Of a DNA stretch of 38,574 bases, positions 10,289 through 29,796 are shown piece by piece (positions within the stretch are counted from its first letter, which is position 1; each line of letters opens with the position of its first letter). This DNA comes from Alphaproteobacteria bacterium (lineage in GTDB: Bacteria > Pseudomonadota > Alphaproteobacteria > Micropepsales > Micropepsaceae), in the NCBI GenBank assembly GCA_013697055.1, contig JACCXK010000052.1:1-38574 (forward strand). Direction: 5' to 3'. The translations under genes and the position numbers were made by a program. The notes below the pieces were generated by a model, which did no database searches, was not told the DNA's origin, and saw only the letters and a list, made by a program, of their open reading frames with translations.

Positions 10289-10348
10289 GAAAATCTCCTC
10301 TGACACCGGTCTAACGCGCGAAAGCTGAACGGGACCCGAACGGCGCGC

Positions 10349-11591: not shown

Positions 11592-12515
11592 ATGCGAGTC
11601 ATTCTAGCCCAGCCGCGCGGCTTCTGTGCCGGGGTCGTGCGCGCCATCGATATCGTGGAAAAGGCGCTCGATAAGTATGGCGAGCCCGTCTATGTCCGCC
11701 ATGAGATCGTGCACAACAAGCATGTCGTGGACACGCTCAAAAACAAGGGCGCCCGCTTTGTCGAGGAACTGGATGAAGTGCCCGAAGGCGCCGTCACCGT
11801 GTTCAGCGCCCATGGCGTGCCCCAGTCGGTGGTGAAGACCGCCGCGGCCCGCGGACTTCCGGTGCTGGACGCCACCTGCCCGCTGGTTTCCAAGGTGCAC
11901 AACCAGGGCAAGCGCTATGTCGCCCACGGCCGCACCCTGATCCTGATCGGCCATGCCGGCCACCCCGAAGTCGAAGGAACCATGGGCCAGGTCGGCGCGC
12001 CGGTGACCCTGGTGCAGAACGAGGCCGATGTCGCCACCATGGCCATCCCGCCGGAAACCCCGGTCGCCTATATCACCCAGACCACGCTTTCCATCGACGA
12101 CACCAAGGGCATCATTATCGCGTTGAAGAAGCGCTTCCGCGACATCGTCGGCCCCGAAACCAGCGACATCTGCTACGCCACCCAGAACCGCCAGACCTCT
12201 GTGCGGGAACTGGCCAAGATCGCCGATGTGATCCTGGTGGTGGGCGCGGCCAACAGCTCCAACTCCAACCGGCTGCGCGAGATCGGCATCGAGGAGGGCG
12301 TGCCCTCCTACCTGATCAATGACGGCAGCGAATTGCAGGCCGAATGGGTGCGTGGCAAGGAGGTGGTCGGCCTGACCGCCGGCGCCAGCGCCCCCGAAGA
12401 ACTGGTGCGCCATGTGATCGAAGCCCTGGGCGAGATCGAAGACGTGGAAGTGGAACAGATGGACGGCAAGAAGGAACATATCGAGTTCCGTCTTCCCGCC
12501 GAGTTGAGGGCTTAA
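11592..12515 (+). CDS. ispH: 4-hydroxy-3-methylbut-2-enyl diphosphate reductase
   Basis: 307-aa iron-sulfur enzyme (LytB) that makes IPP and DMAPP in the last step of the MEP pathway. The three cluster-ligating cysteines are present: C12 (PRGFCAG), C96 (DATCPLV) and C194 (SDICYAT). So are the substrate-binding histidines H41, H74 and H124 and the catalytic E126 ([10 protein letters not shown]). hpnH begins three bases after the stop, so precursor supply and hopanoid side-chain building are co-transcribed. This pairing is known from other hopanoid loci. A housekeeping role is also certain if this is the only copy. Confidence 0.95.
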
Positions 12516-12518
12516 GCC

Positions 12519-13664
12519 ATGGGACTTCCGTTTCGCCAGGCCGCCAAGATCGGCGCCTATGTCGTCAAGAAGCAGCTGTCGGGCAAGAAATACCCGCTGG
12601 TGCTGATGCTGGAGCCGCTGTTCCGCTGCAACCTGGCCTGCGCCGGCTGCGGCAAGATCGATTATCCCGATGAGATCCTGAACCAGCGCATGTCCTATGA
12701 GCAGTGCATGCAGGCGATCGACGATTGCGGCGCCCCCGCCGTCTCCATCGCCGGCGGCGAGCCCCTGCTTCACCGCGACATGGCCAGGATCGTGGAAGGC
12801 TATATCGCGCGCGACAAGTTCGTCATCCTGTGCACCAACGCGCTGCTGCTGGCCAAGAAGATCGACCAGTACAAGCCGCACCCGAATTTCACCTGGTCCA
12901 TCCATCTGGACGGCGACAAGGGCATGCACGACAAGTCGGTCTGCCAGGACGGCACCTATGACCGCGCCATCGCCGCCATCAAGCTGGCCAAGTCCAAGGG
13001 CTTCCGCACCCAGATTAACTGTACCCTGTTCGACGGCACCGACCCGGAACGCACCGCAAAATTCTTCGATGAGATGATGGCGATGGGCGTGGACGGCATG
13101 ACCGTGTCGCCGGGCTATGCCTATGAGCGCGCGCCCGACCAGCAGCACTTCCTCAATCGCGAGCGCACCAAGAAGATGTTCCGCGACATTCTGAGTCGCG
13201 GCAATGGCGGCAAGAACTGGGAATTCACCAATTCCTCGCTGTTCATGGATTTCCTGGCCGGCAACCAGACTTATGAATGCACCCCCTGGTCGATGCCGCT
13301 GCTGACCGTGTTCGGCTGGCAGAAGCCCTGCTACCTGCTGGGCGAAGGCTATGCCGCGACCTTCACCGAACTGATGGAAGGCACGGATTGGGAAAAATAC
13401 GGCGTCGGCAAGTATGAGAAATGCGCCAACTGCATGGTGCATTGCGGCTTCGAAGGCACCGCCGCCACCGACGCGATCAAGCACCCGCTCAAGATGCTGC
13501 CGATCCTGATGAAGGGCATCAAGACCGACGGCCCGATGGCGCCGGAAATCGACCTGTCAAACCAGCGGCCGGCCGAATTCACCTTCTCGCGTCATGTCGA
13601 GCACAAGATGTCACAGATCAAGGCCGGCAATTCCAACACCACAGAGATCGCGGCAGCGGAGTAG
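12519..13664 (+). CDS. hpnH: adenosylhopane synthase, radical SAM protein HpnH
   Basis: 381-aa radical SAM enzyme that joins a 5'-deoxyadenosyl group to diploptene (hopene) to give adenosylhopane, the first step of the C35 side chain. The CxxxCxxC cluster motif is C37-C41-C44 (FRCNLACAGCGK), followed by the SIAGGEPLL strand that binds SAM. Extra cysteines occur near the C-terminus (KCANCMVHCGFEG). It is coupled to ispH with a three-base gap. Its last 54 bases overlap the end of hpnG on the other strand. Confidence 0.95.
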   Translation: MGLPFRQAAKIGAYVVKKQLSGKKYPLVLMLEPLFRCNLACAGCGKIDYPDEILNQRMSYEQCMQAIDDCGAPAVSIAGGEPLLHRDMARIVEGYIARDKFVILCTNALLLAKKIDQYKPHPNFTWSIHLDGDKGMHDKSVCQDGTYDRAIAAIKLAKSKGFRTQINCTLFDGTDPERTAKFFDEMMAMGVDGMTVSPGYAYERAPDQQHFLNRERTKKMFRDILSRGNGGKNWEFTNSSLFMDFLAGNQTYECTPWSMPLLTVFGWQKPCYLLGEGYAATFTELMEGTDWEKYGVGKYEKCANCMVHCGFEGTAATDAIKHPLKMLPILMKGIKTDGPMAPEIDLSNQRPAEFTFSRHVEHKMSQIKAGNSNTTEIAAAE

Positions 13665-14433: not shown

Positions 14434-16362
14434 TCACAACCCGTACTCAACTCGGCGGCTATTGCCTGTCTTGAGATTGCGGTAGCGCGCCAGGGCCCAG
14501 AGCGGGAAGAATTTCGGATAACCGTGATAGTTCAGGTAGAACACCCGCGGGAAACCGCCGCCGGTGTAGTGCGGCTGGCTCCACAGACCATCGCCTTCCT
14601 GCGTCGCCTTCAGGTAATTGACGCCGCGCGCCACCGCCGGATGATCCACAGCGCCCGCCGCCATCAGGCCCAGCAACGCCCAGGCTGTCTGTGACGCGGT
14701 CGAGGGCGCGGCCTCATAGCCTTTGTAATCCAGCTTGTAGCTGTCGCAATTCTCGCCCCAACCGCCGTCCGGATTTTGGATGGCGAGCAGCCAGTCGGCG
14801 CCCTTTTTCATTGTTGCGTGATCGGGGCCGAGCCCTGCGCCGTTCAGCCCCGCCAGCGCCGACCAGGTGCCATAGATGTAATTGACGCCCCAGCGGCCCC
14901 ACCAGGAACCATCACCGCGCTGGGTCTTGATCAGATAATCGATGCCGGCCTTCAGGCGCGGATCGTCCGTCTTCGCGCCCAGTTGCGCCAGCATGCCGAC
15001 GCAGCGCCCCGACACGTCTTCGGTGGGCGGGTCCAGCAGCGCGCCGTGATCGGCGAAGGGAATGTTGTTCAGGTAGTAATAGGAATTGTCGGCATCGAAG
15101 GCGCCCCAGCCGCCGTCCCGGCTCTGCAGGCCTTCCACCCATTCGGCGCCGCGCGCGATGGCTTCTTTGTATTCGCCGCGCTGTGCGGCGCGGTCCATCG
15201 CCATCACCACCACGGCAGTGTCGTCCAGGTCGGGGTAATGATCGTTGCGATACTGGAAGGCCCAGCCGCCGGGGCGCACATCGGGCTTTTCCCCGGCCCA
15301 GTCGCCTTTGACATCCAGCACCTGCAACGGCTTCAGCCATTCCAGGCCACGCGCCACCGCCGCTTCCGCCGCCGCGTCCTTGGTTTCCAACAGGGCATGC
15401 GCCACCAGCGCGGTATCCCACACCGGCGAAACGCAGGGCTGGCAATAGGCTTCGTGTTCCTTGATGACCAGGAGGTTTTCGACCGACTTGCGGGCGATGG
15501 CGCGATCCGGGTGCTCCGGCGGATAACCCAGCACGTCGTACATCATCACGCTGTTGGCCATGGCGGGATAGATCGCACCCAACCCGTCTTCGCCGTTCAG
15601 CCGCAGGCGCGTCCATTCGCGGCACTTTTCGATCGCCTTGTCGCGCGAATCCTTGGGCCAAGGCACTGTCTTCAACACCCGGTCCAGCGCGCCGAAGAAG
15701 GCCGACCAGCCGGCGCTCTGGTGTGGCGCGCGCGGGCTGGCGGCGGGCACACCGGGCACAAACAATTCGTCGATATGAATGCCGCGCAGATTCTTCGCTA
15801 GCGGCTGTTTCGCGCACAGCACCAGCAGCGGCACGATCACGGTGCGCGCCCAGTAGCTCATCTTGGACAGGTGCACCGGAAACCAGCGCGGCAGCAGGAT
15901 CAACTCCGGCGGCACCGTCGGCACATCGTTCCAGGAACATTGCCCGTACAGCGCCAGGAGGATGCGGGTGAAGACATTGGCCTTGATGGCGCCGCCGCGG
16001 GCATGCAGCGCCTCGCGCGCCCGCGCCATGTGCGGGGCGTTAATGTCATCGCCGATCATCTTGAGGGCGAAATAGGCCTTCACCGTCGCGGAGATGTCGA
16101 AGGCGCCTTCGTGATACAGCGGCCAGCCGCCATGCGCGCCCTGGATGCGGCGCAAATAGACGCCGATCTTGCGCTCCAGCTCCAGGTTGGGCGCTTCCGC
16201 CAGGTAGTGCACCAGCAGCACATACTCCGCCGGGATGGTGGCATCGGCCTCCAGCTCATAGACCCAGTGCCCGTCCGGCCTCTGCTGCGCCAGGATCGCA
16301 TACGTGGCGGCGCCGATCGCGCCTTCCACCTCCACGAAGTCGCCGGGGTTCAGCTGGTTCAT
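14434..16362 (-). CDS. shc: squalene-hopene cyclase
   Basis: 642-aa monotopic membrane enzyme that cyclises squalene to hopene and hopanol in one step. The catalytic DxDDTA motif is D378-L-D-D381-T-A. Several QW repeats are visible, including QRPDGHWV near residue 27, GDGSWWGRWG, PDGGWGEN and EGDGLWSQ. The length is normal. I took the ATG at 16362, seven bases after the hpnE stop, because protein before it in the open frame is only the antisense of hpnE and the family begins close to this point. It is also called hpnF. All residues expected for activity that I can judge are present. Confidence 0.97.
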   Translation of the reverse strand: MNQLNPGDFVEVEGAIGAATYAILAQQRPDGHWVYELEADATIPAEYVLLVHYLAEAPNLELERKIGVYLRRIQGAHGGWPLYHEGAFDISATVKAYFALKMIGDDINAPHMARAREALHARGGAIKANVFTRILLALYGQCSWNDVPTVPPELILLPRWFPVHLSKMSYWARTVIVPLLVLCAKQPLAKNLRGIHIDELFVPGVPAASPRAPHQSAGWSAFFGALDRVLKTVPWPKDSRDKAIEKCREWTRLRLNGEDGLGAIYPAMANSVMMYDVLGYPPEHPDRAIARKSVENLLVIKEHEAYCQPCVSPVWDTALVAHALLETKDAAAEAAVARGLEWLKPLQVLDVKGDWAGEKPDVRPGGWAFQYRNDHYPDLDDTAVVVMAMDRAAQRGEYKEAIARGAEWVEGLQSRDGGWGAFDADNSYYYLNNIPFADHGALLDPPTEDVSGRCVGMLAQLGAKTDDPRLKAGIDYLIKTQRGDGSWWGRWGVNYIYGTWSALAGLNGAGLGPDHATMKKGADWLLAIQNPDGGWGENCDSYKLDYKGYEAAPSTASQTAWALLGLMAAGAVDHPAVARGVNYLKATQEGDGLWSQPHYTGGGFPRVFYLNYHGYPKFFPLWALARYRNLKTGNSRRVEYGL

Positions 16363-16369
16363 GACGGTA

Positions 16370-17623
16370 CTATAAAGACAGATGGCGGCAGGCCAAAGCC
16401 GCCGCACTTTCCCCGGATTGCAGGGCGCCCTCGATGGTGGCGGGCAGCCCGGTTTGGGTCCAATCGCCGGCCAGGAACAGGTTGGGCCAGCCGGTCCTGG
16501 CCTCCGGCCGGCGGGCATCCTGGGCCGGGGTGGCGGCGAAGGTGGCGCGCTTTTCCTTGACGATCTGCCACACTGGCATGGGCGCCGTGATATCCAAGGC
16601 TTTGGCGACATCGCCCCAGATGCGGGTGGCCAGCGCCTCGCGGTCCTCATCCACAATCGCGTCCGCGCCCGACACCGTCACCGAGATGCGGTCGGGAAAG
16701 GTGAAAATCCATTCGGCGGTGCCGCCGATCACGCCGAGCATGGGGGACGCGCCCGCAGGACCCGGCATCTTGAAATGCGCATTGACGATGGCGCGAAAAT
16801 CATCGGGCGCGGTCAAGGTGGGAATGAGGTCCTTGGCCACCCAGGGCGGCACCGCCAGCACCACCGCATCGTTCCGCGTCAGCGGCACCGCCGCCTCGCC
16901 CAGGTCCAGCGCCAGGGCGGTGCGCCGGCCCAGTGTGATGCCGCGCAGGCGAGTGCCCAGCTGCACGCTCGCGCCGTGCTTTTGCAAATAGGCCAGCGCG
17001 GGGTCGATGAAGGCCGCCGCCAAAGTGGGATGGGCAATGCGCGGGCGGTAATAGCGGCCGCCCTTGGCCAGGGTCTCGCGCAGCACCGCACCCGCCAACG
17101 CGGCAGAGGACTCCTCCGGTTCTGTGTTCAACGCCGCCAGCAGGAAGGGATGCATCAGCCGCCGCCACAAGGGGCCGCGATCCTTGACGATGTCGGCAAT
17201 GCTCTTTTTCTTGTCCGCCCACAGCAACGGCGCATATTGGGTGTAATCACGAGCGTTGCTGCCGGGCACCCGGCGGTCCGGGCGCGCAATCCAGTAGGGC
17301 ACGCTGCCTTCATTGGGCCGCAAGGTCCAGCGATGACCATCGGCAAAATCCACAAAGGCAAATTCGGCACGCGGCGGCCCCGCCAGCGCATCCTTGGCCG
17401 CAATGCGCGCCAGATAGGCATGCACGGCACGATTGCCCGACAGCACAAGGTGATTGCCATTGTCGATCACGCCGTCAAAGGCCGGATCGAAATAGGAGCG
17501 GCAGCGCCCGCCCGCCTGCGGCGCCGTCTCGATCACCGTGACGGACGCGCCGCGCGACGCCAGCACAGTAGCCGCCGACAGGCCGGCCAGCCCGGCGCCT
17601 ATCACATAAGCTTTTCCCGTCAT
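16370..17623 (-). CDS. hpnE: hydroxysqualene dehydroxylase HpnE (FAD-dependent)
   Basis: 417-aa flavoprotein of the amine oxidase/phytoene desaturase family. It reduces hydroxysqualene to squalene, the third step of the HpnC/D/E route. The FAD-binding GAGLAG is at residues 9-14 followed by ASRGASVTVIE. The C-terminal FAD motif (NLFLAGDWTQTGLPATIEGALQS region) is near residues 383-405. It starts 13 bases after hpnD and ends seven bases before shc, matching pathway order. Confidence 0.93.
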   Translation of the reverse strand: MTGKAYVIGAGLAGLSAATVLASRGASVTVIETAPQAGGRCRSYFDPAFDGVIDNGNHLVLSGNRAVHAYLARIAAKDALAGPPRAEFAFVDFADGHRWTLRPNEGSVPYWIARPDRRVPGSNARDYTQYAPLLWADKKKSIADIVKDRGPLWRRLMHPFLLAALNTEPEESSAALAGAVLRETLAKGGRYYRPRIAHPTLAAAFIDPALAYLQKHGASVQLGTRLRGITLGRRTALALDLGEAAVPLTRNDAVVLAVPPWVAKDLIPTLTAPDDFRAIVNAHFKMPGPAGASPMLGVIGGTAEWIFTFPDRISVTVSGADAIVDEDREALATRIWGDVAKALDITAPMPVWQIVKEKRATFAATPAQDARRPEARTGWPNLFLAGDWTQTGLPATIEGALQSGESAAALACRHLSL

Positions 17624-17636: not shown

Positions 17637-18494
17637 TCATGAAAAGAGTCCCTGGCGCAACACCAGCGACATCAGCCGCGACTTGCGCAACGACACGCGA
17701 TGGCGGGGCGCGGCAAAACCCTGTGCTTCGCTGGCGCGCAGGATTTCCGAATAGACCGCGCCCATCAGGCGCGGCGTCTTGATGCGCCCCTTGGGCCGCG
17801 CCGACAGGATGGCTTGCGCTTCGTCATAATGATGATGCGCCAGCTTGGCGACCTTGCGGCAGACCGCGTCGATTTGTGGCTTGTTGACGATGGCGCTGAC
17901 ATCCAGCGAGCGGCAGCAATCCATTTCCTGCAGATATTCCCGCGGCAGGTAAAGCCGGCCGATGGCGGCATCCTCGTCGATGTCGCGCAGGATATTGGTG
18001 AGCTGCAGCGCACGGCCCAGGTGATGCGCCAGTTGGAAGCCGGGGCCCTCGTCCATGCCGAATATCTTGATGGACAAACGCCCCACCGCGCTGGCCACCC
18101 GGTCGCAATACAGGTCCAGGGCGGCAATATCCGGCGCGACGATATCCTCGGTCACGTCCATGTCCATGCCGTCCAGCACCGCCAGGAAATCCTGGAGCCG
18201 CAGGCCGTATCTGGCGATGGCGGGGGCGAGAAACCGCACTTGCGGCGCGATCGTCCCGGCATACAGGCCGCGCAGGTCGGCGCGCCATTGGTTCAGCTTT
18301 TCATGGCGTTCGGCGCGCGTGCCGACGCCGTCATCGGCAATGTCGTCCACCTTGCGGCAAAAGGCATAGATGGCGAACATGGCGTCGCGCTCTTCCACCG
18401 GCATCAGCCGCATGGCGAGATAGAAAGAGCTGCTCTTGGCCTTCTTGTGCACGGCCTTGGCGGCGGGGGCGCCGATATTCTCTGCATTGGTCAT
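17637..18494 (-). CDS. hpnD: presqualene diphosphate synthase HpnD
   Basis: 285-aa squalene/phytoene-synthase-fold enzyme that joins two farnesyl diphosphates to presqualene diphosphate, the first step of the HpnC/D/E squalene route. Two aspartate-rich motifs are present, DDIADD (50-55) and DIDED (171-175). So is the TNILRD context typical of the family. Its ATG overlaps the hpnC stop in an ATGA junction, indicating translational coupling of the two paralogues. Confidence 0.93.
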   Translation of the reverse strand: MTNAENIGAPAAKAVHKKAKSSSFYLAMRLMPVEERDAMFAIYAFCRKVDDIADDGVGTRAERHEKLNQWRADLRGLYAGTIAPQVRFLAPAIARYGLRLQDFLAVLDGMDMDVTEDIVAPDIAALDLYCDRVASAVGRLSIKIFGMDEGPGFQLAHHLGRALQLTNILRDIDEDAAIGRLYLPREYLQEMDCCRSLDVSAIVNKPQIDAVCRKVAKLAHHHYDEAQAILSARPKGRIKTPRLMGAVYSEILRASEAQGFAAPRHRVSLRKSRLMSLVLRQGLFS

Positions 18495-19336
18495 TTGGGG
18501 CGTCTCAGGCGCATCAGCGCGAAGGCGGGAAAGCGTTTCAGGAACAGGGCGGCCACATCCATCCTGGAATGATGCACGGCTTGCGACAGCGGATCGCGGT
18601 TCATCAGCATGGTGTTCAAATCGTCGGCCAAGGTCTGGATGAGATCGACTTCCAGCGCAAGCCGGCCGTCTTTTATCCCACGGGCAAAGAGCCGCGAAGT
18701 CTCCAGCAGGCCGGCATTCTTTCGCGCCAGGCCGGCAATCACCGCCGTCAGCGCCGGATTGGCTTTATTCTGGCCCAGCGCCTCCACCCCGATCCCGGCC
18801 AGCAGCGGCTCGGGGATATAGACGCGGGTAAGCTCGCGATAATCCTTGGCGCAATCCTGCAGATGGTTGATCACCTGCAGCGCGGCGCACAGGGCGTCGT
18901 TGGCGGGCCACAGCTTTGGGCTTTCGCCATGCACATCCAGCACAAAGCGGCCGACCGGCATGGCGCTGTAGCGGCAGTAATCGATCAGGTCATCCCAATC
19001 GCGGTAGCGCAGCTTGGTGCAGTCGCGGCGGAAGGCTTCCAGCAAATCCAGCGCATGCGCCGGCGACAGGCCACGCTCTTTTTGAATCTCGCGCAGCGTG
19101 ACGCCTTCCGGCACGGCATCGCTCTCGCCCACCAGGCTGGCGCGCATCTGTTCCAGAAGCGCCAGCTTCTCGTCCGGCGCGGCGGTGACATGATCGGCCA
19201 CGTCATCCGCGGCGCGCACGAAATTGTAGAAGGCCATCACCGGCGGACGGTGCTTGGGCGCGATCAGGATCGAGGCGACGGGAAAATTCTCGTCCTTGTG
19301 GCCCTTGCCAGACTGGAGTTCGGCGACACTGCTCAT
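18491..19336 (-). CDS. hpnC: hydroxysqualene synthase HpnC
   Basis: 281-aa paralogue of HpnD that converts presqualene diphosphate to hydroxysqualene. The first acidic motif is RAADDVAD (41-48). The second site reads NHLQDCAKDYRE, the altered form expected for HpnC. The ATG at 19336 overlaps the hpnB stop as ATGA, and its own stop overlaps the hpnD ATG in the same way. An upstream in-frame start at 19465 would only extend into hpnB and is rejected. Confidence 0.93.
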   Translation of the reverse strand: MSSVAELQSGKGHKDENFPVASILIAPKHRPPVMAFYNFVRAADDVADHVTAAPDEKLALLEQMRASLVGESDAVPEGVTLREIQKERGLSPAHALDLLEAFRRDCTKLRYRDWDDLIDYCRYSAMPVGRFVLDVHGESPKLWPANDALCAALQVINHLQDCAKDYRELTRVYIPEPLLAGIGVEALGQNKANPALTAVIAGLARKNAGLLETSRLFARGIKDGRLALEVDLIQTLADDLNTMLMNRDPLSQAVHHSRMDVAALFLKRFPAFALMRLRRPK

Positions 19337-20493
19337 GCCTGCCCTCCAGCATCGGCTTGCGCCCGGCCCTTCCACGTCCCACCCCGGCCCGACCAGTGCT
19401 GGATGGCCGATTCCACCGTGAAGGCGGCATAGAAAATGCCGATCAACGGCAGCGCCAGGCCCCACAAGGGCGACAGGCGGTAGAAGCGCAGCATGGGCTG
19501 GTACATCAGCGCCATGATCATCCAGGCCAGCCAGCCGGCCAACTGCGAAGGCCCCCAGGCGAACAGCGCCGTCATGACCGGCGCCAGGTAAACCAGCGCC
19601 AGGCCTAGGAGGGTTGCCGCCAGCACCAGCGGCGAATAGCCCAGCTGAGCATAGGCGCTGCGCGTCACCATGTGGCGGATATCGGCGATATGGGGATAGG
19701 GCCGCAAAGATACGGCGCGATCGGTGAGGCCCAGCCAGATGGGGCCGCGGGCCTTCATGGCCCGGCCCAGGGCGCAGTCATCGATGATGTTGTGGCGGAT
19801 GGCCTCGATGCCGCCGGCTTTTTCCAGCGCCGTGCGGCGCGCCAGCATGCAGCCGCCGGCCGCCGCCGCCACGGTACTCGCGCGGTTGTTCACTGCGCCG
19901 AAGGGAAACAGCATATCGAAGAAAAATACGAAGGCAGGGATCAGGAAATGCTCGGCCGCCGACTTGCAGGACAGCCGCGCCATCAGCGACACCAGCACCT
20001 TGTTGCCATCCTGCGCCCGCGCCACCAGATGGCGCAGATTGTCGGGAGAATGGGCGATATCGGCATCGGTGAACCAGAGGAATTCCGGCCCCCCTTCATT
20101 CTTAAACAAGTTGGCGGCAGCATAATCGCTGCCCTGCTTCATCGCCCACAGCTTGCCGGTCCAGCCGGAGGGTCGCGCCGCGCCCGTCACCACCGTCAGA
20201 CGCTCGGAATTCAGCGCCCGCGCCAATGCGCCGGTGCCGTCGCCGGACTGGTCGTCCACCAGCACGATGCGGAAGGTGCCGGGATAGTCCTGGGCGATGA
20301 GGCTGCCGATGCTGTGCCCGATCACGTCCGCCTCGTCGCGGGCGGGCACCACCGCCACCACCGGCGGCCAGGCCTGCGGTTCGGCAAGCGGGGCCGTGTC
20401 GCGCTCGCGCAGCAGCCAGAAGCCGTTGTGGAACAGCAGGAGATAGAGCCAGATCGCCAGCGGCAGGAAGCCGAACAGGATGCCCGCGATCAT
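19333..20493 (-). CDS. hpnB: hopanoid-associated glycosyltransferase HpnB
   Basis: 386-aa membrane-anchored GT2-family glycosyltransferase. A hydrophobic helix at residues 1-25 is followed by the catalytic domain with VPARDEADVI, DDQSGDGT and the FTDADIAH metal-binding DxD region. IRHNIIDDCALGRAMK supplies the later acidic motif. Three C-terminal membrane helices end the protein (about 285-365). HpnB is conserved beside hpnA and hpnC-F, but its sugar and acceptor are unsettled. Translation is coupled to hpnC. Confidence 0.9.
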   Translation of the reverse strand: MIAGILFGFLPLAIWLYLLLFHNGFWLLRERDTAPLAEPQAWPPVVAVVPARDEADVIGHSIGSLIAQDYPGTFRIVLVDDQSGDGTGALARALNSERLTVVTGAARPSGWTGKLWAMKQGSDYAAANLFKNEGGPEFLWFTDADIAHSPDNLRHLVARAQDGNKVLVSLMARLSCKSAAEHFLIPAFVFFFDMLFPFGAVNNRASTVAAAAGGCMLARRTALEKAGGIEAIRHNIIDDCALGRAMKARGPIWLGLTDRAVSLRPYPHIADIRHMVTRSAYAQLGYSPLVLAATLLGLALVYLAPVMTALFAWGPSQLAGWLAWMIMALMYQPMLRFYRLSPLWGLALPLIGIFYAAFTVESAIQHWSGRGGTWKGRAQADAGGQA

Positions 20494-20503: not shown

Positions 20504-21493
20504 TCATGAGAGATATCCGTTCTCGCGGAACCAGCTTAGCGCGTCCTTCAGACCTTCCTTGTAGGGCCGCGCGGTATACCCGAGATCGCGGCGCGCCTTT
20601 TCCGAGCTGAAGAACATGCGATAGCGCGACATGCGCAGGGCATCGGCGGTGAGGAAGGGTTCCTTGCCGGTGATGCGGGCGAGCGCTTCAGCGCCCCAGG
20701 CCAGCGGAAACAGGGGTGCGCGCGGTATTTTTATGGTCGGCGCTTTGCGCCCCGACAGGAAGGCGATGTCGCCGAGCATGGTTTCCAGCGCCACATCGGT
20801 GCCGCCCAGGATGTAGTTTTCGCCGATCTTGCCCTTGTCCAGCGCCAGGAGATGTCCGTTCGCCACGTCATCGACATGCACCAGGTTGAGCCCGGTATCG
20901 ACAAAGGCCGGCATGCGGCCGGTGGCGGCTTCGACGATGACGCGGCCCGTCGGGGTGGGCTTGACGTCGCGCGGGCCTATCGGAGTCGATGGCGCGACAA
21001 TCACGCCAGGAAGCCCCTCCTCCCGCACAAGCCGTTCGACTTCGCGTTCGGCCAACAGCTTGGAGCGCTTATAGGCGCCGATCACGCTTTGCGGCGTGTG
21101 GCGGGAGCTTTCGTCCACCGCCGTGTCGCCCGGCTTCAGGGCCGCTACGGAGGAAGTATAGACCACCCGCTCCACCCCCGTCCGCAGCGCCGCCCCCATG
21201 GTCGCCTTGGCGCCCTGGAAATTGTTGTGCTCGATCTCGCGCGGATTGCGGGCCCACAGGCGATAATCGGCCGCGACATGGAACAGGTAGCGGGCGCCTT
21301 TCAGCGCGGCCCGCATGGACTCTTCATCGCGCATGTCGCCGACCACCGGATCGCAATGCAGCTTGGCGATGTTCAGCCGGTTGGCGGTGGGCCGCATCAA
21401 CACCCGCACATGCAGGCCGCGCGCCACCAGCGCCCGCGCCACCGCGGAGCCAACGAACCCGGATGCCCCGGTGACAAGTGCGATGTCAGACAT
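20504..21493 (-). CDS. hpnA: hopanoid-associated sugar epimerase/dehydratase HpnA
   Basis: 329-aa short-chain dehydrogenase of the extended NAD(P) type. The nucleotide-binding GASGFVG is at residues 9-15 and the catalytic pair Y141 and K145 in YKRSK. TSS just before it supplies the Ser/Thr. HpnA is associated with hopanoid loci, probably in sugar head-group metabolism, but its substrate is not known. The ATG at 21493 lies eight bases inside the end of hpnL; the longer open frame above it is an antisense-like stretch of hpnL. hpnB follows after ten bases. Confidence 0.9.
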   Translation of the reverse strand: MSDIALVTGASGFVGSAVARALVARGLHVRVLMRPTANRLNIAKLHCDPVVGDMRDEESMRAALKGARYLFHVAADYRLWARNPREIEHNNFQGAKATMGAALRTGVERVVYTSSVAALKPGDTAVDESSRHTPQSVIGAYKRSKLLAEREVERLVREEGLPGVIVAPSTPIGPRDVKPTPTGRVIVEAATGRMPAFVDTGLNLVHVDDVANGHLLALDKGKIGENYILGGTDVALETMLGDIAFLSGRKAPTIKIPRAPLFPLAWGAEALARITGKEPFLTADALRMSRYRMFFSSEKARRDLGYTARPYKEGLKDALSWFRENGYLS

Positions 21494-22463
21494 TGGCGAA
21501 CGCTTTCCGGCCCTCGATGCTTTGCCAATACAGCAAAGCCGGAACCCCCAGCACAATCTCGCGCGCCCGCTTGAGCAGCGACACCGCCACGCCCATCTCA
21601 GCCGGCAGGCCGAACAGCGGCGCCAGCATGGCATAGCCCCATTCCTGTACGCCGATGGCGGCCGGCACAGGGGCTGCGATGCTGCGCAAGGTGCACAGCA
21701 AGGCTTCCAGCGCGATGGCGTTCAGAAAACCGATCTGGCCGCCGACCAGGCGGAAGGAAATGAAGGTCCCCACCCCCGCCCCGATCCAGGCCAGCAGATG
21801 CAGCGCCGCAGAAACCGCTAGACGACTCCTGGAGTGATACAATTCCTCGATGGCGGCGCGGAAGGAAACGCCTTCACGCACCGCGGGGAAGAAGCGCGCG
21901 GCCAGGCGCTCGGCAAAACCGGCGCCTTTCTTCTGCAGGAAAATCAGCAGCGCGATGGCCGGAACGGCCAGCAGCAGCACTGCCAGCATGCCCTCGGTGA
22001 CAGGGCCGGACCCTTCGAGGTGCCGGAACTGGGTGATGCCCAGCCCCAGGCCGAAGGCCAGGAACACGACCTGCGCCATCGCCTCGGTGGTGGCGTCGCC
22101 GGCGACAGAGGCCGCCGCGAAGGCGGGACTCATGCCCTTCAACACCATCAGCCGCGCGGCGGCTACCATGCCACCCACCGGCGAGAAGGGCGAAATCTCG
22201 GCAATGGAATCACGCACCAGCCGGGCGAGATAGAAATCGCGCAGCGGCCGGCGTTCAGACGCCGGCAACAGAAAAGACCAGGCAAAGGCCAAGCTGACGA
22301 ACACCAGCAGCGCAAACAGGCACAGCACCGCCAGCCCGCCGAACCCGGCGCGCGCCACGGCCGCGAACACCGCGTCAAAGCCGATGGACCACACCAGATA
22401 GACGGCCGCGATGACGCCGGCCAGCAGCGCGACAGCGACCCCGAGCTTTGGTGCCCACTTCAT
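21486..22463 (-). CDS. hpnL: hopanoid-associated membrane protein HpnL
   Basis: 325-aa integral membrane protein related to the membrane part of lysylphosphatidylglycerol synthase (UPF0104 type) and matching the HpnL family. About eight hydrophobic segments are visible, beginning with residues 5-28 and 40-65. A conserved-looking ISPFSPVGGM loop is near residue 90 and PAAIGVQEWGYAML near 270. The substrate is unknown; a lipid flippase-like role is a guess from the family. It starts on the base after the stop of the first ferritin-like gene and overlaps hpnA by eight bases, so it is fully inside the operon. Confidence 0.85.
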   Translation of the reverse strand: MKWAPKLGVAVALLAGVIAAVYLVWSIGFDAVFAAVARAGFGGLAVLCLFALLVFVSLAFAWSFLLPASERRPLRDFYLARLVRDSIAEISPFSPVGGMVAAARLMVLKGMSPAFAAASVAGDATTEAMAQVVFLAFGLGLGITQFRHLEGSGPVTEGMLAVLLLAVPAIALLIFLQKKGAGFAERLAARFFPAVREGVSFRAAIEELYHSRSRLAVSAALHLLAWIGAGVGTFISFRLVGGQIGFLNAIALEALLCTLRSIAAPVPAAIGVQEWGYAMLAPLFGLPAEMGVAVSLLKRAREIVLGVPALLYWQSIEGRKAFANV

Positions 22464-23312
22464 TTACGCAGGCAGCGGCTTGGCGCGGAAGCTCCACAGC
22501 CGCATGGCGCCCAGCGCGGTTTCTGCCAGTTGCGGCAGGAAGCTGGGGCGCAGCAATTCGGGCTCGAACACGCCCATGCGGCGGCGATTTTCCGAATAAC
22601 AGTCTTCCAGGAAGCGGCGGAAAGTGAAGCCGTCCAGGAACACGGATGCCTGGGTGGCGGAAAATTCCTTGCCGTCGTTCAGATCCTTGCCGCGCTTGGC
22701 GGTGCCGACCATGCGGCCCAGAGCGCGCATGTAATAGCGAAAGTCGGTCAGCGGCAGCAGCATGCGGGCGATCACGCCCTTCTGCGCCTGGTTGTAGGCC
22801 ATCCAGTTGACGAAGAAGACGATATGGCGCGTCTCCTCGTACATCAGGGTTTCGAAAATCTGGAACATCTCCTTGGGCAGGAACTGGGACTGCATGGCGA
22901 TCTTGAACACGCCGAAGCCCAGGAAGGAATCCATGCACTCGCCGAAACCGAAATCCTTGAAGCGGGTTTCGACATTGTCGCTGACATCTTCCAGCGGACG
23001 CTCGGCGGCGTCGATATTGTATTTCTGGATCATCACCCGGATCAGCTTGGCGTGGCGAGCTTCCTCGAAGCCCTGCAGCGCCACGGCTTCCTTCATCACC
23101 GGGTCCTTCACCGTCTTGACGAATTCCGCCACGATCGCCCCGGCGCGGCGCTCGGTGTAGAAAACCTCTTCCCAGAAAGGCACCGATTTCAGGCGCGCCA
23201 ATGCCGCCTCGTCCAGGTCCGGCCAGGGCAAGGTGTCCGGGTCGAACTCGGTATAAGTCTGCATGAACTGCTTGCAGAAAGTGTCGCGATGTTCCGGAGA
23301 TCCGATTTTCAT
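22464..23312 (-). CDS. ferritin-like di-iron protein in hopanoid operon (copy A)
   Basis: 282-aa soluble, mainly helical protein of the ferritin-like superfamily with unknown substrate. A complete four-helix di-iron set is visible: E54 (YTERRAG), E84 and H87 in EEARH, E125 (GFGECMDSF), and E160 and H163 in EETRH. This is the E...ExxH...E...ExxH ligand pattern of di-iron oxidases rather than of iron-storage ferritin, and the protein is larger than ferritin. There is no signal peptide. It shares the whole ligand layout and local sequence (GxxECxDSF, FFVNWxA) with the neighbour copy B. It overlaps copy B by an ATGA junction and abuts hpnL. A hopanoid-modifying oxidase is inferred from context only. 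Confidence 0.8.
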   Translation of the reverse strand: MKIGSPEHRDTFCKQFMQTYTEFDPDTLPWPDLDEAALARLKSVPFWEEVFYTERRAGAIVAEFVKTVKDPVMKEAVALQGFEEARHAKLIRVMIQKYNIDAAERPLEDVSDNVETRFKDFGFGECMDSFLGFGVFKIAMQSQFLPKEMFQIFETLMYEETRHIVFFVNWMAYNQAQKGVIARMLLPLTDFRYYMRALGRMVGTAKRGKDLNDGKEFSATQASVFLDGFTFRRFLEDCYSENRRRMGVFEPELLRPSFLPQLAETALGAMRLWSFRAKPLPA

Positions 23313-24214
23313 GCGTTGACCTTTTTCGGACCGATGAACTTCAACGCCATGCGGGCCATGAACGGCACAAAGCGCGGACGCTTGAGCCGGTTGTCATAGG
23401 GCTTCAGCCGGCGGTCATTCTCGGCGACGCAAATGGCGATCAGCTCGCCGACATTGATGTCCGAACCCAGCTGCTCGGCGCCGGTGACGGTGAAGTTGTT
23501 GTCCTGCTCGCCGTTGGACACGTCCGAGGCGATGCCCATGCGCTCATAGATCAGGAACAGCCAGACCGCGAGCACCTTCAGTTCAAAATAGGGCCGGCGC
23601 CAAAACGGCATGTTGCGTCGATGCCAGGCGACCCAGTTCACAAAGAACAATATATGGCGGGCTTCCTCATTCACCACCGGATCGAAGGTCTGGATCAGCT
23701 CGGGCGGGAAATAACCGGTGTCTTTCGCCGCCTTGAACAGGCCAAAGGCGAAGAAGGAGTCGATGCATTCGCTATAGCCGGTGACCATGAAGGCCCATTC
23801 CGGATTCTTCGGCTTCTCATAGACCGGCTCGGGCGCCAGCTTGATGCCATAGGCTTCCACAAGATTGGCCAGCACATGACGATGACGGCGTTCCTCGAAC
23901 CCGTTCAGCTCCACCGCCTTGCGCAGCAACACGTCGGGAATGCTTTCGGCATAGGTGCAGACATTCAGCCCCGCGCGGTTCTCGGTCTGCACCGCGATGT
24001 CCCAGATCGGCAGGGCGGTGATGCGTCTCTCGGCTTCCTCGCCCAGCTTGGGCCAGTCCAGCACCGCCGGCTTGTAAGGGTCATGGGTGTCCAGCAAGGT
24101 CTTGCAGAACAGCCGCTTGTGCGCGTCCGAGCCGAACTTGATCGGGCCGTCATCGGGCCAGGCGCCGGTGTCGCGCGTCAGGTCGGGTGGAATGGCAAAG
24201 GCGTGGCTGCTCAA
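23309..24214 (-). CDS. ferritin-like di-iron protein in hopanoid operon (copy B)
   Basis: About 301-aa paralogue of the downstream copy A. The di-iron pattern is again complete: TENRAG, EERRH, GYSECIDSFF and EEARH, in the same order and with similar spacing. FFVNWVAWHRRN follows the last ligand. A short hydrophobic stretch (VLAVWLFLIYERM) lies near residue 205. I place the start at a TTG at 24214, since AGGGAG sits six bases upstream and no in-frame ATG exists before the conserved part. A second TTG at 24271 lacks a ribosome site. Its stop overlaps the ATG of copy A. Function unknown; see findings. Confidence 0.75.
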   Translation of the reverse strand: MSSHAFAIPPDLTRDTGAWPDDGPIKFGSDAHKRLFCKTLLDTHDPYKPAVLDWPKLGEEAERRITALPIWDIAVQTENRAGLNVCTYAESIPDVLLRKAVELNGFEERRHRHVLANLVEAYGIKLAPEPVYEKPKNPEWAFMVTGYSECIDSFFAFGLFKAAKDTGYFPPELIQTFDPVVNEEARHILFFVNWVAWHRRNMPFWRRPYFELKVLAVWLFLIYERMGIASDVSNGEQDNNFTVTGAEQLGSDINVGELIAICVAENDRRLKPYDNRLKRPRFVPFMARMALKFIGPKKVNA

Positions 24215-24310: not shown

Positions 24311-25150
24311 TTAGTTTGAAAAGTCACCAAAGCCGCCGGTTTTGATACCCTGCGCCGTCAGACTCGCCTTCACCGCCGGATTGGTCAGAGCGGCCAGTTC
24401 GGAAGCGTACTGATAGCCCGGCGCCGAACCCGGATAAGGACCGGTGGCCGGATGGGTATAAATCTCACTCAGGCCCTCCGGCAGATGCGCGATCAGCCCC
24501 GCCAGCCGGCTTTGCGTCATCGCCCCCGACCAGGCCAGGCCGAACACCGCGTCAGGCGCGGTGATGCCGGCCTTGGTAAAGCGGCCGCGCAACGCCCGCG
24601 CGAACGGCGCGGTCAGCGCCACCATACCGGATGCCTTGTGCGCTTCAATGCGGCCCAGCACATCCTGCGGCTCCAGCGGCACCCGCGCGCCCTTCACACG
24701 ATGCTTCTTGCCGATTTTCACGATCAGCGAGGCGATGGTGGGATGCAGGTGGAAATGCTTGTGGGCGTTGACGTGGTCCAGCTTCAGGCCGGTGGCTTCA
24801 AATGCCTCAAACTGGGCTTCGATCTCGGCCGCCAGCTGGGCGCGCACTTTCGGCAGGAAAAACATCGCCGCCCCTGCCCGTGCCATGTCGGTACGGAAAG
24901 TCCCGCTGGCGTCCACCAGGTCCGGCACCGCATTGCGCGGCAGGATCGGCTTGCCCTCGACCAGAACAAGATGAAGCCCGACCCGAAGCTCTGGCATGGA
25001 TTTGGCGCGGATAACAGCGTCGCCCGCGGCGGCGCCCGCCACCATCAGGCTGGCGGCGGAGAGAATGCCATCGCAATGGGCGCGTTCGACCGCCTCGTTG
25101 ACTTCGAGTGCGGCACCGAAGTCATCCGCCGTGACGATCAGGCGTTTCAC
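24311..25150 (-). CDS. hpnK: hopanoid N-acetylglucosamine deacetylase HpnK (YdjC/ChbG family)
   Basis: 279-aa YdjC-like carbohydrate deacetylase. HpnK removes the acetyl group from the N-acetylglucosaminyl hopanoid made by HpnI, giving the glucosamine form. The metal-binding TADDFG is at residues 7-12, and the histidine cluster HVNAHKHFHLHP sits near residue 125. The start is a GTG two bases after the hpnJ stop. The order hpnI-hpnJ-hpnK on one strand is a compact head-group module. Confidence 0.9.
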   Translation of the reverse strand: MKRLIVTADDFGAALEVNEAVERAHCDGILSAASLMVAGAAAGDAVIRAKSMPELRVGLHLVLVEGKPILPRNAVPDLVDASGTFRTDMARAGAAMFFLPKVRAQLAAEIEAQFEAFEATGLKLDHVNAHKHFHLHPTIASLIVKIGKKHRVKGARVPLEPQDVLGRIEAHKASGMVALTAPFARALRGRFTKAGITAPDAVFGLAWSGAMTQSRLAGLIAHLPEGLSEIYTHPATGPYPGSAPGYQYASELAALTNPAVKASLTAQGIKTGGFGDFSN

Positions 25151-25152: not shown

Positions 25153-26580
25153 CTAGGAGACGATCATGTCTTCGCGATTCTTGAGGAACTGGAAGAACTC
25201 CACGCCTTCGCGCAACCGGCGCACCAGCATGTCGCGGCTGGTGAGCATTTCCTTGACGATCTCGGCGATCTTGGACGGGCGGAAATAGAACTTCTTGTAG
25301 AAGTCTTCCACCGAATTGAAGATCTCGGTGTGGCCCAGATGCGGATAATTCAGCGGCGCGATCTGGGTGCCGTCGTCCGTCAGCAAGTCCACGTCGGACG
25401 CGAACCAGCCATTTTCCTTGGCCTGCTTGTAGAGGAAGGTGCCCGGATAGGGCGCCGCCAGCGACACCTGGATGGTGTGCGGGTTCACGTCCTTGGCGAA
25501 TTGCAGGGTTTCCTGGATGGTTTCGCGGGTCTCGCCCGGCAGGCCCAGGATGAAGGTGCCGTGCACCACGATGCCCAGATCATGGCAATCCTTGGAGAAG
25601 CGGCGGGCGACATCGACCAACAGTCCCTTCTTGATGTTGTGCAGGATCTGCTGGTTGCCGGATTCATAACCGACCAGGAGCAGGCGAAGGCCGTTGGCCT
25701 TCATCACTTCCAGGGTCTTGCGCGGCACATTCGCCTTGGCATTGCACGACCAGGTCACCTTCAGCGGGCCCAGCGCCTTGGCCAGTTCTTCCACACGGTC
25801 GTGATTGTCGGTCAGGGTGTCGTCGTCGAAGAAGATTTCCCGCACTTCCGGGAAATTGTCCTTCACATACTGCACGTCCTGCACCACGCGGGCGGTGGAC
25901 ATGAAGCGGTACTTGTGGCCGCCGATGGTCTGGGGCCATAGGCAGAAGGTGCAGCGCGACTTGCAGCCGCGGCCGGTGTACCAGGACATGTAGGGGTGCA
26001 GCAGGTAGCCGCCGAAATACTTCTTCACATCGAGCTGCTTGTAATAGGGCAGCACCGACGGCAGCTTGTCCATGTCCACCAGAATTTCGCGCTCGGGGTT
26101 CGAGACGATCTGGCCGGCGGCGTCGCGATAGGTCAGGCCCTTGATGGTGGACCAGTCCGCGCCTTCGGCGATTTCCTTGATGGTGAAGTCGTATTCATTG
26201 CGCGCCACGAAATCCAGTTCCGGGCAGGCGGCCATGCTTTCGTTCGGCTCGACCGCGACCTTGGCGCCGATGAAGCCGATCTTGGCGGTAGGATTGAGTT
26301 CGCGCACCAGGCGCGCGCTCTTGCAGTCGGACTTGAACGATGGCGTCGAGGTGTGGATGACGATCAGCTCATGCGCCTTCACATCGTCTTCGATGTCCTT
26401 GAAGGACAGGTTGTGCGGCGGGGCGTCGATCAGGCGCGAGCCCGGCACCATCGCGGCCGCCTGGGCCAGCCAGGTGGGAAACCAGAAGCTCTTCACTTCC
26501 CGCTTCATCTGGTAGCGCGCGCCGGCGCCGCCGTCATAACCCTCGAAAGAAGGCGCCTGCAGGAAAAGGGACTTCATCAT
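25153..26580 (-). CDS. hpnJ: radical SAM protein HpnJ (cyclitol ether formation)
   Basis: 475-aa B12-binding-type radical SAM enzyme. HpnJ contracts the ring of bacteriohopanetetrol glucosamine to the cyclitol ether head group. An N-terminal Rossmann-like cobalamin-type region (about 1-140) precedes the radical SAM core with CxxxCxxC in GRGCKSRCTFC, cysteines at about 206, 210 and 213. I start at the second ATG (26580), which has AGAGG seven bases upstream; the first (26586) lies only one base from it. It is between hpnI and hpnK, coupled to hpnK by a two-base gap. Confidence 0.92.
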   Translation of the reverse strand: MMKSLFLQAPSFEGYDGGAGARYQMKREVKSFWFPTWLAQAAAMVPGSRLIDAPPHNLSFKDIEDDVKAHELIVIHTSTPSFKSDCKSARLVRELNPTAKIGFIGAKVAVEPNESMAACPELDFVARNEYDFTIKEIAEGADWSTIKGLTYRDAAGQIVSNPEREILVDMDKLPSVLPYYKQLDVKKYFGGYLLHPYMSWYTGRGCKSRCTFCLWPQTIGGHKYRFMSTARVVQDVQYVKDNFPEVREIFFDDDTLTDNHDRVEELAKALGPLKVTWSCNAKANVPRKTLEVMKANGLRLLLVGYESGNQQILHNIKKGLLVDVARRFSKDCHDLGIVVHGTFILGLPGETRETIQETLQFAKDVNPHTIQVSLAAPYPGTFLYKQAKENGWFASDVDLLTDDGTQIAPLNYPHLGHTEIFNSVEDFYKKFYFRPSKIAEIVKEMLTSRDMLVRRLREGVEFFQFLKNREDMIVS

Positions 26581-26632
26581 CGTCATACCTCTAGGCCCGA
26601 AACGTCGGGAACAGCAGGGAACTTTCAGGTCC

Positions 26633-27784
26633 TCAGACCTGGGACATCGCGCCCGAAGGCTCTACCGCAAAGTGGCTTCCGCGCCAATGCACGGTTTCGC
26701 CAAACAGCGAGGCCACGAAGACCGCGAAACTCAACAGGTCGCGCAGGGGCACCAGCCAATAAGGGCCGGCATAGGTACCGAAATGCCCGTCAATCCGGGC
26801 TTTCAGGAAGAAACGGGCGGCCAGGGTCAGCGCCAGTGCGGCGAGGCTGACAGTGTTAAAATCCAGAAAGATGGCGCTCATCAGGGCGAAGGCAAAGCCA
26901 TGGGTGATAAAGCTGCCGGCATGGCCTGCCGGGTTCACCAGCCGGATGGTGCGGCTCCAGCGCAATTCGTGGCGGAACAATTCGCCGACGCTGTCTTCCG
27001 CCGTGGTGTGGCCAACGCCCATGGCCGGGATGGCCAGGGTGTAACCCTTGGCGCGCACGGCGCGGCCCATCTCATAATCATCGGCCAGCTGATCGGCGAA
27101 GGCGGCGAAACCGCCGACCTCGTCCAGGGTCTGGCGGCGCAGCGCAATGGTCGAACCGAAGCAGGGCGTGGCAAGGCCGAGGCTGGTGCCCAGTACTGCA
27201 TTGGGCAGGAAGGTATAAGACGTGCCCATCGCCGCCAGCGAAGACCACAGCCTGTGGCCATCCTTGGCCGGCTCGCCGGTATAGAGACACGTGACGATGC
27301 CGACATTCGGACGCGCCAGCGCCGTAGTTACCTGGGCCAGCCATTTGTGGCCCACGGCGATGTCGCTGTCTGACAGCACCAGCGTGTCATGGCGCGCGGT
27401 GGGCAGCATGTTGATCAGGTTGGAAATCTTGGCATTGGCGCCGTAGAGCGCGGTGTCCGCCACGATGGCGGTATCGCTGTCCGGATACTTAGCCTGCAAC
27501 GCGCGCACCACTTCGATGGCGGGGTCGGCTTCGTCATGCACGCCGAACAAGATTTGCACCGGGCCGGCATAGTCCTGGGTGAAGAAGGTCTCCAGGTTCT
27601 GGAACAGATCCGGCTCGCAACGGTGCAGCGGCTTCAGGATGGTGACAGCGGGGCTGGGCGCGGCCGTGCCCTGCCCTTCCTGCATGAAGCGACCAACCAG
27701 CACGGCGGAGAGCAGCGCATAGCCGGCACCGATCACGGCCACCGCCGCCAACAAACCGCCGATGTCGAAGAATAACGAATGCAT
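26633..27784 (-). CDS. hpnI: hopanoid glycosyltransferase HpnI (ceramide glucosyltransferase-like)
   Basis: 383-aa membrane GT of the GT21-like group. HpnI adds N-acetylglucosamine to bacteriohopanetetrol. An N-terminal membrane helix (about 5-30) is followed by KPLHRCEPDL, the DSDIAVG metal site, a DDYEMG acidic motif and RHELRWSR, which is the (Q/R)xxRW-type motif of processive and ceramide-type enzymes. Two or three membrane segments end the protein. I use the ATG at 27784; a GTG at 27790 is possible. It is the first gene of the minus-strand operon, below a region with clear inverted repeats. Confidence 0.9.
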   Translation of the reverse strand: MHSLFFDIGGLLAAVAVIGAGYALLSAVLVGRFMQEGQGTAAPSPAVTILKPLHRCEPDLFQNLETFFTQDYAGPVQILFGVHDEADPAIEVVRALQAKYPDSDTAIVADTALYGANAKISNLINMLPTARHDTLVLSDSDIAVGHKWLAQVTTALARPNVGIVTCLYTGEPAKDGHRLWSSLAAMGTSYTFLPNAVLGTSLGLATPCFGSTIALRRQTLDEVGGFAAFADQLADDYEMGRAVRAKGYTLAIPAMGVGHTTAEDSVGELFRHELRWSRTIRLVNPAGHAGSFITHGFAFALMSAIFLDFNTVSLAALALTLAARFFLKARIDGHFGTYAGPYWLVPLRDLLSFAVFVASLFGETVHWRGSHFAVEPSGAMSQV

Positions 27785-27864
27785 GGTCACTATCTGGGAG
27801 CCCCCGCCCGTAGATACTTATTAAATCTCGCGCTTCGAGGGGGGAAGGCCAATTTTCTGACAAT

Positions 27865-27984: not shown

Positions 27985-29796
27985 ATGGCGGCACCCCAGG
28001 CAAATCCGGCCCTTTTTCAGGCCCTTGGGACAGCGAGTCAGGCGCTGCGAGCCGGCGATCCCGATGCGGCCGACCGGGCATTGGCCCCGATGCTTGGCCA
28101 AGACGACCCGCGGGTGCTGCACCTGGCAGGGCTGGTGCGCATGCACCAGGAGCGTCACGAAGAGGCCGCCGAGCTTTTTGCCCGCGCCCGCGCCGCCGAT
28201 CCGGGCGAGGCGTTGCTGGCCTTCAGCCATGGCACGGCGCTGCGCTGGCTGCAGCGTGGCGATGAAGCGGCCCAGGCCTTCAAAGCCGCCGTGGCGCTCA
28301 AGCCCGATTATGGCGAAGCCTATTTCGAGGCCATCAACGCCTTTCAGGAAATGGGCGACTTGAAAGAGGCCGAGAGCCTCGCGCGCCAATGGCTGCGGGT
28401 GATGCCGGAGAATGTGCGCGCCCGGCTGTCGCTGGGTGACATATTGCTGGCGGCCCGGCGTCTCGCCGAAGCCGAAATGCCCTTGCGCGAAGCGCTGGCC
28501 GGCGCGGCATCGCCGGAAGGCCGCGCGGTTCTCCACCAAAGACTGGGCCTGGCGCTGCGCCGGCAACACAAGAATGAAGACGCGCTGGCGCATTATGAAA
28601 GCGCGGTGACGCTGGACCCCGATCCGGTCTCCGATGCCATCCGGGTGGAGATTTTGCAGGACCTGAAACGCTATGACGAGGCGGTGCTGATTTCGCAAAG
28701 CCTGGTGGCGCGCGATCCGGCCAATCCGCAATGGCACAAGCTTCACAATGACCTGATGTACCGGCTGGGACATGAGGATTATCTCAAATCCTATGGCCGC
28801 GCGCCCCAGAGTGCCGAACTCCTGATGTCCAAGGCCTATTTCCTCACCCATGAAAAGCGGGGCGAGGAAGCGCATGAAGCCTATAGCGCCGCCCTGGCGC
28901 TGGCGCCGGACGACAAGGCGGCCGCGATCGGCGTGGGCAATGCCCTGAACCTGATGCAGCGTCCCGGCGAGGCGCTGAAGGTCTTCGAACAGGTGATGGC
29001 AAAATACGGCGAAGACGCAAATCTTTTGAGTTGCGCCGCCGAGGGCGCCATCCTGTCGGGCGATCCCGAACGTGCCGCGATGCTGTGCGAGAAAAACCTC
29101 GCTTTGGCGCCGCACGACCAGGTGGCGCTGGCGATGCTGGGCACGGCCTGGCGGATGCTGGGTGATGACCGCGACGAAGCGCTGAACGGCTATGACTCGC
29201 TGATCCGCATCTATGACCTGGAGCCGCCGGACGGCTTTTCGGACATGGAAATCTTCAATGCCGAGCTGAATGCCTGGCTGGACCGTGTGCATCCCGCCAC
29301 CCGCGAATATCTGGACCAGTCGCTGCGGGGCGGCAGCCAGACGCCCGACAAGCTGTTCGGGGCCGGTCACGAGCTGGTGGAAAAAATCCAGCGACGCATC
29401 CACGAAGCGGTGGAACGCTACATCGCGGATATGAAGCCCGACGAGAAGCATCCCCTTGCGGCACGCCGGGCGCGCGGTTTCGATTACACCGGCTCCTGGT
29501 CGTCACGGCTGAAGGATTGCGGGTTTCATACCAACCATATCCATCCCGAAGGCTGGATCAGTTCCTGCTATTATGTGGCGTTGCCCAAGGCGGTCGAAGA
29601 CACGGAAGGCCGGCAGGGCTGGATCAAATTCGGAGAGCCGGCGCTGGACGTGGCGCTGAAAGACCCGATCCGCCGCACCATCCAGCCGCGCGCCGGACGA
29701 TTGGTGCTGTTCCCGTCCTATATGTGGCATGGCACGGTGCCGTTCCGCGATACGCAGCCGCGCACCACGATCGCCTTCGACGCTGTACCGATCTAA
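27985..29796 (+). CDS. TPR protein with C-terminal 2OG-Fe(II) oxygenase-like domain
   Basis: 603 aa. Residues about 1-430 are tandem 34-residue TPR-like helices (for example the ALALAPDDKAAAIGVGNALN repeats). Residues about 490-603 match the putative 2OG-Fe(II) oxygenase family that often follows TPRs. Likely iron and cosubstrate residues are H518/H520 in HTNHIHPEGW, H582 in YMWHGT and R593 in RTTIAFD. There is no signal peptide. AGGA sits seven bases before the ATG. It is divergent from the hopanoid operon and overlaps the MetA-like gene by four bases at the 3' ends. Substrate unknown; TPRs suggest a protein partner or target. Confidence 0.8.
   Translation: MAAPQANPALFQALGTASQALRAGDPDAADRALAPMLGQDDPRVLHLAGLVRMHQERHEEAAELFARARAADPGEALLAFSHGTALRWLQRGDEAAQAFKAAVALKPDYGEAYFEAINAFQEMGDLKEAESLARQWLRVMPENVRARLSLGDILLAARRLAEAEMPLREALAGAASPEGRAVLHQRLGLALRRQHKNEDALAHYESAVTLDPDPVSDAIRVEILQDLKRYDEAVLISQSLVARDPANPQWHKLHNDLMYRLGHEDYLKSYGRAPQSAELLMSKAYFLTHEKRGEEAHEAYSAALALAPDDKAAAIGVGNALNLMQRPGEALKVFEQVMAKYGEDANLLSCAAEGAILSGDPERAAMLCEKNLALAPHDQVALAMLGTAWRMLGDDRDEALNGYDSLIRIYDLEPPDGFSDMEIFNAELNAWLDRVHPATREYLDQSLRGGSQTPDKLFGAGHELVEKIQRRIHEAVERYIADMKPDEKHPLAARRARGFDYTGSWSSRLKDCGFHTNHIHPEGWISSCYYVALPKAVEDTEGRQGWIKFGEPALDVALKDPIRRTIQPRAGRLVLFPSYMWHGTVPFRDTQPRTTIAFDAVPI

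Follow-up and report, generated by a model that had tools for sequence, protein, structure and literature searches.

A family of proteins predicted to be ferritin-like di-metal enzymes, FerA and FerB (names coined in the present analysis), is found almost only in bacteria that make hopanoids, the sterol-like bacterial compounds that are major membrane lipids and also geological biomarkers. A hopanoid function for the two proteins is close to certain, and the predicted fold and metal ligands make it likely that they are O2-dependent oxygenases. Our best explanation as a whole, which we rate just below an even chance, is that FerB and FerA form a family of ferritin-like monooxygenases dedicated to hopanoids, with a di-metal (Fe/Fe or Mn/Fe) site. 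In this explanation FerB would hydroxylate the side-chain CH2 that adjoins the tetrol, probably at C-31, and a second, linked oxidation would fall to FerA.

The hopanoid locus that holds both genes, on G000:C147 of an alphaproteobacterial genome, is complete and was analysed here as a window of 38,574 nucleotides, by which we mean the whole stretch of DNA. A run of genes from hpnI to hpnG occupies the minus strand, and hpnH, ispH and hpnN lie on the opposite strand, as follows:

26633..27790, minus strand: hpnI, glycosyltransferase
25153..26586, minus strand: hpnJ, B12-binding radical SAM protein of the cyclitol ether step
24311..25150, minus strand: hpnK, deacetylase
23309..24214, minus strand: FerB, putative ferritin-like di-metal oxygenase paralogue B, 301 aa, TTG start; E78, E108/H111, E149, E184/H187
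22464..23312, minus strand: FerA, putative ferritin-like di-metal oxygenase paralogue A, 282 aa, ATG start; E54, E84/H87, E125, E160/H163
21486..22463, minus strand: hpnL, membrane protein abutting ferA (TIGR03476, 245.6 bits against a cut-off of 195.7)
20504..21508, minus strand: hpnA
19333..20493, minus strand: hpnB
18491..19330, minus strand: hpnC
17637..18494, minus strand: hpnD
16370..17623, minus strand: hpnE
14434..16386, minus strand: shc, squalene-hopene cyclase (SHC), 740.7 bits
13611..14273, minus strand: hpnG
12519..13664, plus strand: hpnH
11592..12515, plus strand: ispH
6785..9388, plus strand: hpnN, hopanoid transporter

Three further observations concern this locus. Divergent from hpnI, positions 27985-29796 of the window encode a TPR protein whose C-terminal domain is a 2OG-Fe(II) oxygenase (PF13759), another oxygenase flanking the hopanoid genes. 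A 284-aa open reading frame 3' of hpnN (window 9449-10303) has no Pfam or NCBIfam match and may be no gene. Compared with its syntenic relatives in loci L004-L030, hpnJ is bimodal in identity, at 86-98% in some and 61-62% in others, independently of how close ferA is, and the bimodality suggests xenologous replacement of hpnJ.

The earlier note on this DNA had described two paralogues joined by an ATGA overlap and abutting hpnL, and this arrangement was confirmed at 22464-23312 and 23309-24214. The ferB/ferA junction reads GCATGAAA, with ferA starting within the end of ferB, and the TAA stop of ferA is directly followed by the ATG of hpnL. The TTG start of FerB takes the position of an ATG in its relatives. 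FerA and FerB are about 33% identical and are regarded as paralogues on this ground. The ligand residues of FerA are exactly those that had been named, and FerB has a matching set. All six ligand columns (E, ExxH, E, ExxH) are invariant in the 46 aligned family members, as are, beyond the ligands, H8, W30, Y98, C126, N169, E241, R244 and R245 (FerA numbering). The Fer genes are under clear purifying selection, with dN/dS of 0.04-0.20. When Pfam and NCBIfam models were searched, neither protein reached a curated cut-off.

An AlphaFold2 model of FerA built with 42 aligned sequences (pLDDT 88, pTM 0.86) confidently predicts a four-helix bundle of the ferritin-like di-metal carboxylate superfamily, in which E54, E84/H87, E125 and E160/H163 sit on four successive long helices (core helices 47-65, 71-97, 114-141 and 147-177). 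A natural FerB/FerA fusion, folded with thin alignment coverage of its FerB half, gave two complete bundles whose mutual position is uncertain (pTM 0.50). The suggestion that the two proteins act as a heterodimer with one modified site was rejected: FerA and FerB each have all ligands, no sequence has an incomplete site, and each half folds into a bundle of its own in the models.

The association with hopanoid synthesis was seen at three taxonomic scales. Among 385 alphaproteobacterial genomes the family occurs in 27, and SHC is present in 25 of these carriers against about 103 of the 385 overall, not counting three SHC matches that were marginal and four with atypical long frames (Fisher P about 1e-13; P values are only a guide, as related genomes are not independent). 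The two carriers without SHC have fragmented genomes, G127 (74% complete) and G307 (92%). In a phylum sample SHC accompanies the family in every one of the 11 clear carriers; a weak match in G485 (E 2e-4, no SHC) was left out of the family members. In the genus of Sphingomonas-like G585, the family is present in 12 of 131 genomes, SHC in 18 and both in 11 (P about 1e-10), with ferB and shc 10-11 kb apart in 10 of the 11 double carriers; seen from the other side, 11 of the 14 near-complete SHC-positive genomes of this genus carry ferB. Because many further carriers hold the family gene far from hpn genes, the association is not merely hitch-hiking. Co-occurrence with shc, which the earlier note had proposed as a check, therefore came out strongly in the class, phylum and genus samples (25/27, 11/11 and 11/12 carriers) and supports its proposal of ferritin-like di-metal proteins in hopanoid tailoring. 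In two genomes that keep ferB, the shc match falls in two pieces (G815:C1:831258-832358 and G876:C1:2278269-2279221), possibly marking frameshifted or insertion-bearing cyclases.

Gene order and phylogeny outline how the pair is built. One scan of genome contigs fetched 28 relative loci, 25 of which hold the pair, or the part of it that the contig contains, with hpnL, and with hpnI, hpnJ and hpnK in the same order where the contig reaches. Of the remaining three, L026 has a lone ferA next to hpnN, and in L029 and L031 FerB and FerA are fused into a single ORF followed by an hpnL (confirmed by TIGR03476 in L029); an SHC match was found in the L029 genome and none in the L031 genome. A third fusion, also in one open frame, occurs in G334. 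Such natural fusions of the two halves in other genomes make it probable that FerA and FerB work together. Two other genes were observed at these loci. In one locus a gene for a NodS-like SAM methyltransferase separates ferB from ferA (L025:9240-10004) and may encode a further hopanoid tailoring enzyme; in L029 the ferB-ferA fusion has an OlsE-like membrane hydroxylase (L029:755-1696; 70 bits, under its cut-off) at a distance of about 3.4 kb.

In a tree of 46 members, FerA forms a clade with support of 1.0 and FerB a core clade with support of 0.98, which takes in hpn-linked, Sphingomonas, Acetobacteraceae and Burkholderia members, and more divergent subfamilies stand beside them. FerB is the widespread core member and FerA an add-on. 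In the class sample all eight FerA genomes hold a second family member, which fits either a heterodimer or a second step, by FerA, that depends on the first. The order hpnI-J-K-ferB-hpnL recurs in Sphingomonas-like genomes, and Cupriavidus metallidurans has ferB-hpnB-hpnA-ispH-hpnH-hpnN. Two SHC-positive Sphingomonas-like genomes without ferB (G827 and G863, loci L158 and L161) have no hpnI/J/K or hpnL beside hpnA either, so the module seems to be gained or lost as a unit. Divergent subfamily members lie away from hpn genes; in G308, G115 and G384, three genomes of different families, a divergent ferB-type gene directly adjoins an alanine dehydrogenase-like gene (L068:8058-10052, L069:8369-10386 and L071:7056-9089). 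Among the conserved neighbours outside hpn loci no electron donor gene was found, and none was linked to the family.

The spread of FerB matches that of bacteriohopanepentol, at the level of orders and families, and unsaturated hopanoids fit it less well. FerB-type genes occur in Acetobacteraceae (Commensalibacter melissae and Formicincola oecophyllae), in Sphingomonas-like genomes, and in Burkholderia, Caballeronia, Cupriavidus and Massilia forsythiae. A 2025 survey of Alphaproteobacteria reported pentol and hexol BHPs, often as cyclitol ethers, in Rhodospirillales (including Acetobacteraceae) and Sphingomonadales and not in Hyphomicrobiales; pentol was present in three of the four hopanoid-making Sphingomonas species surveyed, and the genes for pentol, hexol and unsaturated hopanoids were given as unknown, with no candidates near hpn clusters (PMC12583986). 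The cyclitol ethers of Burkholderia cenocepacia comprise tetrol and pentol types, along with their putative delta-6 forms (PMC8560942). The family profile had no match in 337 genomes of Hyphomicrobiales, the order of Methylobacterium-like G283, a null result that carries weight, since this profile did find targets in other runs. G283 and Methylobacterium bullatum share 99.8% identity in SHC, and the G283 genome has hpnJ and hpnK without Fer genes. Amino-BHPs hydroxylated at C-31 and C-30 are made by methanotrophs (PMC11844350), including type II methanotrophs of Hyphomicrobiales; as the family was not found in that order, another C-31/C-30 enzyme must exist. In Rhizomicrobium palustre a cyclitol ether is nearly the only BHP (PMC12583986), and its near-absence of pentol would be awkward if the window comes from a member of Micropepsaceae, requiring R. 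palustre to lack ferB or to leave it unused.

On this distribution, FerB may convert bacteriohopanetetrol-type into bacteriohopanepentol-type lipids, chiefly those of the cyclitol-ether branch that HpnI/J/K build. That FerB makes pentols, with the carbon attacked judged from lipid distribution, is something we hold tentatively, at nearly even chances. The linked oxidation by FerA would most simply fall on C-30 and yield hexols, or else FerA would serve as heterodimer partner of FerB; the division of labour likewise leans on distribution, and hexol formation by FerA is on the unlikely side. The fuller claim, that FerB and FerA are the missing hopanoid side-chain hydroxylases, for pentol (C-31) and then hexol (C-30), and so a new lipid-hydroxylating family of ferritin-like oxygenases, is possible but doubtful.

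The pair had been suggested to hydroxylate or desaturate the hopanoid; of these two, desaturation fits the phylogenetic distribution worse. Ferritin-like di-iron proteins do include desaturases, and FerB-bearing Acetobacteraceae and B. cenocepacia make delta-6 (and delta-11) hopanoids (PMC12583986; PMC8560942), so that unsaturated hopanoids in Acetobacteraceae and Burkholderia are a counterpoint to the pentol reading. Ring desaturases inserting delta-6 and/or delta-11 double bonds are nevertheless improbable: although 11 of 14 near-complete SHC-positive Sphingomonas-like genomes have FerB, unsaturated BHPs amount to 0-1% and pentol to as much as 90% in the surveyed Sphingomonads, and Afipia broomeae, with 43% unsaturated, belongs to the order in which none of 337 genomes has the family (PMC12583986). 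Hydroxylation is favoured over desaturation because ferB is common in SHC-positive genomes of the Sphingomonas-like genus and the surveyed Sphingomonas species combine pentol, in three of four, with so little unsaturation. There is also a small chance that FerA and FerB, with HpnI/J/K, oxidise the cyclitol-ether or glucosamine head group and not the side-chain carbons beside the ring system. The joint presence and absence of ferB with hpnI/J/K and hpnL in Sphingomonas-like genomes, G827 and G863 included, would suit such a role, and FerA is very weakly similar to the aerobic cyclase AcsF, whose anaerobic counterpart BchE is related to HpnJ. However, HpnJ is present beside FerA and FerB and is thus not replaced by them, G283 has hpnJ and hpnK without Fer genes, and no head-group oxidation in the survey tracks the Fer distribution.

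Weak Pfam matches to Rubrerythrin and Ferritin_2, together with members unlinked from hpn genes, could point to proteins of iron storage, peroxide scavenging or stress defence whose genes simply accompany those for hopanoids. This is very improbable, as even the unlinked members occur almost only with SHC, and the proteins, at 280-300 aa with R2-like extra helices, invariant non-ligand residues and no rubredoxin domain, are unlike ferritin or rubrerythrin. An obligate FerA-FerB heterodimer performing one hydroxylation, with lone FerB elsewhere acting as a homodimer in the same or a related reaction, would account for the ATGA coupling, the natural fusions (L029, L031, G334) and the eight of eight FerA genomes with a second member. 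We give it a low probability, since both metal-ligand sites are complete, the two copies of G370 lie on separate contigs with a divergent partner, and those of G066 are about 13 kb apart.

The FerA/FerB family, often inside the hpn cluster and with a clear phylogenetic signature, is thus a good candidate for the gene or genes that add extra hydroxyls to the hopanoid tail. If this is true, Fer genes would predict which bacteria leave pentol and hexol biomarkers, and ferritin-like oxygenases would gain a new membrane-lipid substrate.

Among known systems, FerA and FerB share their operon and their phylogenetic dependence on SHC with the named HpnA-HpnR proteins, but no NCBIfam Hpn model matches either of them, and a literature search combining hopanoids with ferritin-like proteins found no relevant paper. 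FerA scores 16.1 and 17.6 bits against Rubrerythrin and Ferritin_2, below their gathering thresholds of 22.8 and 24.7. The similarity to the AurF N-oxygenase (PF11583) is weak (E 0.006-0.14), at 11.8 and 12.7 bits against a gathering threshold of 29.6, and FerA/FerB have no N-oxygenase context. Searching PDB sequences with the single FerA and FerB proteins gave no real match. By structure, VIA-align placed R2lox and the ribonucleotide reductase subunit RNR R2 on top for the FerA model with Z of 14-15; unrelated helical bundles can also reach Z near 14, but here the order of the ligands is in agreement as well. RNR R2 (NrdB/NrdF) has the same fold (Z about 15) and ligand order, but its radical Tyr position, four residues past the first ExxH His, is I or L in all 46 Fer members, and the hpn operon contains no nrdA. 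A radical-Tyr RNR function is rejected on both grounds, gene context counting as well because R2 classes without the Tyr exist. R2lox shares the ferritin-like bundle and the 2His/4Glu ligand set (4ac8 aligns over 226 residues with Z 14.8) but is about 11% identical, and the Fer family is hopanoid-linked. The R2lox Tyr of the Tyr-Val ether cross-link sits five residues before the helix-3 Glu, and none of the 46 family members has a Tyr there (FerA position-120 column). R2lox binds a fatty acid (PMC6399176), and one R2lox is a reported alkane hydroxylase (PMC10867098). The top PDB match of the family profile is MiaE-like, marginal and below significance (E 0.047); MiaE is a ferritin-like di-iron tRNA hydroxylase with another substrate and context that acts on an isoprenoid side chain. 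The R2lox alkane hydroxylase and MiaE are precedents for hydroxylation chemistry of the kind proposed here for FerA and FerB.
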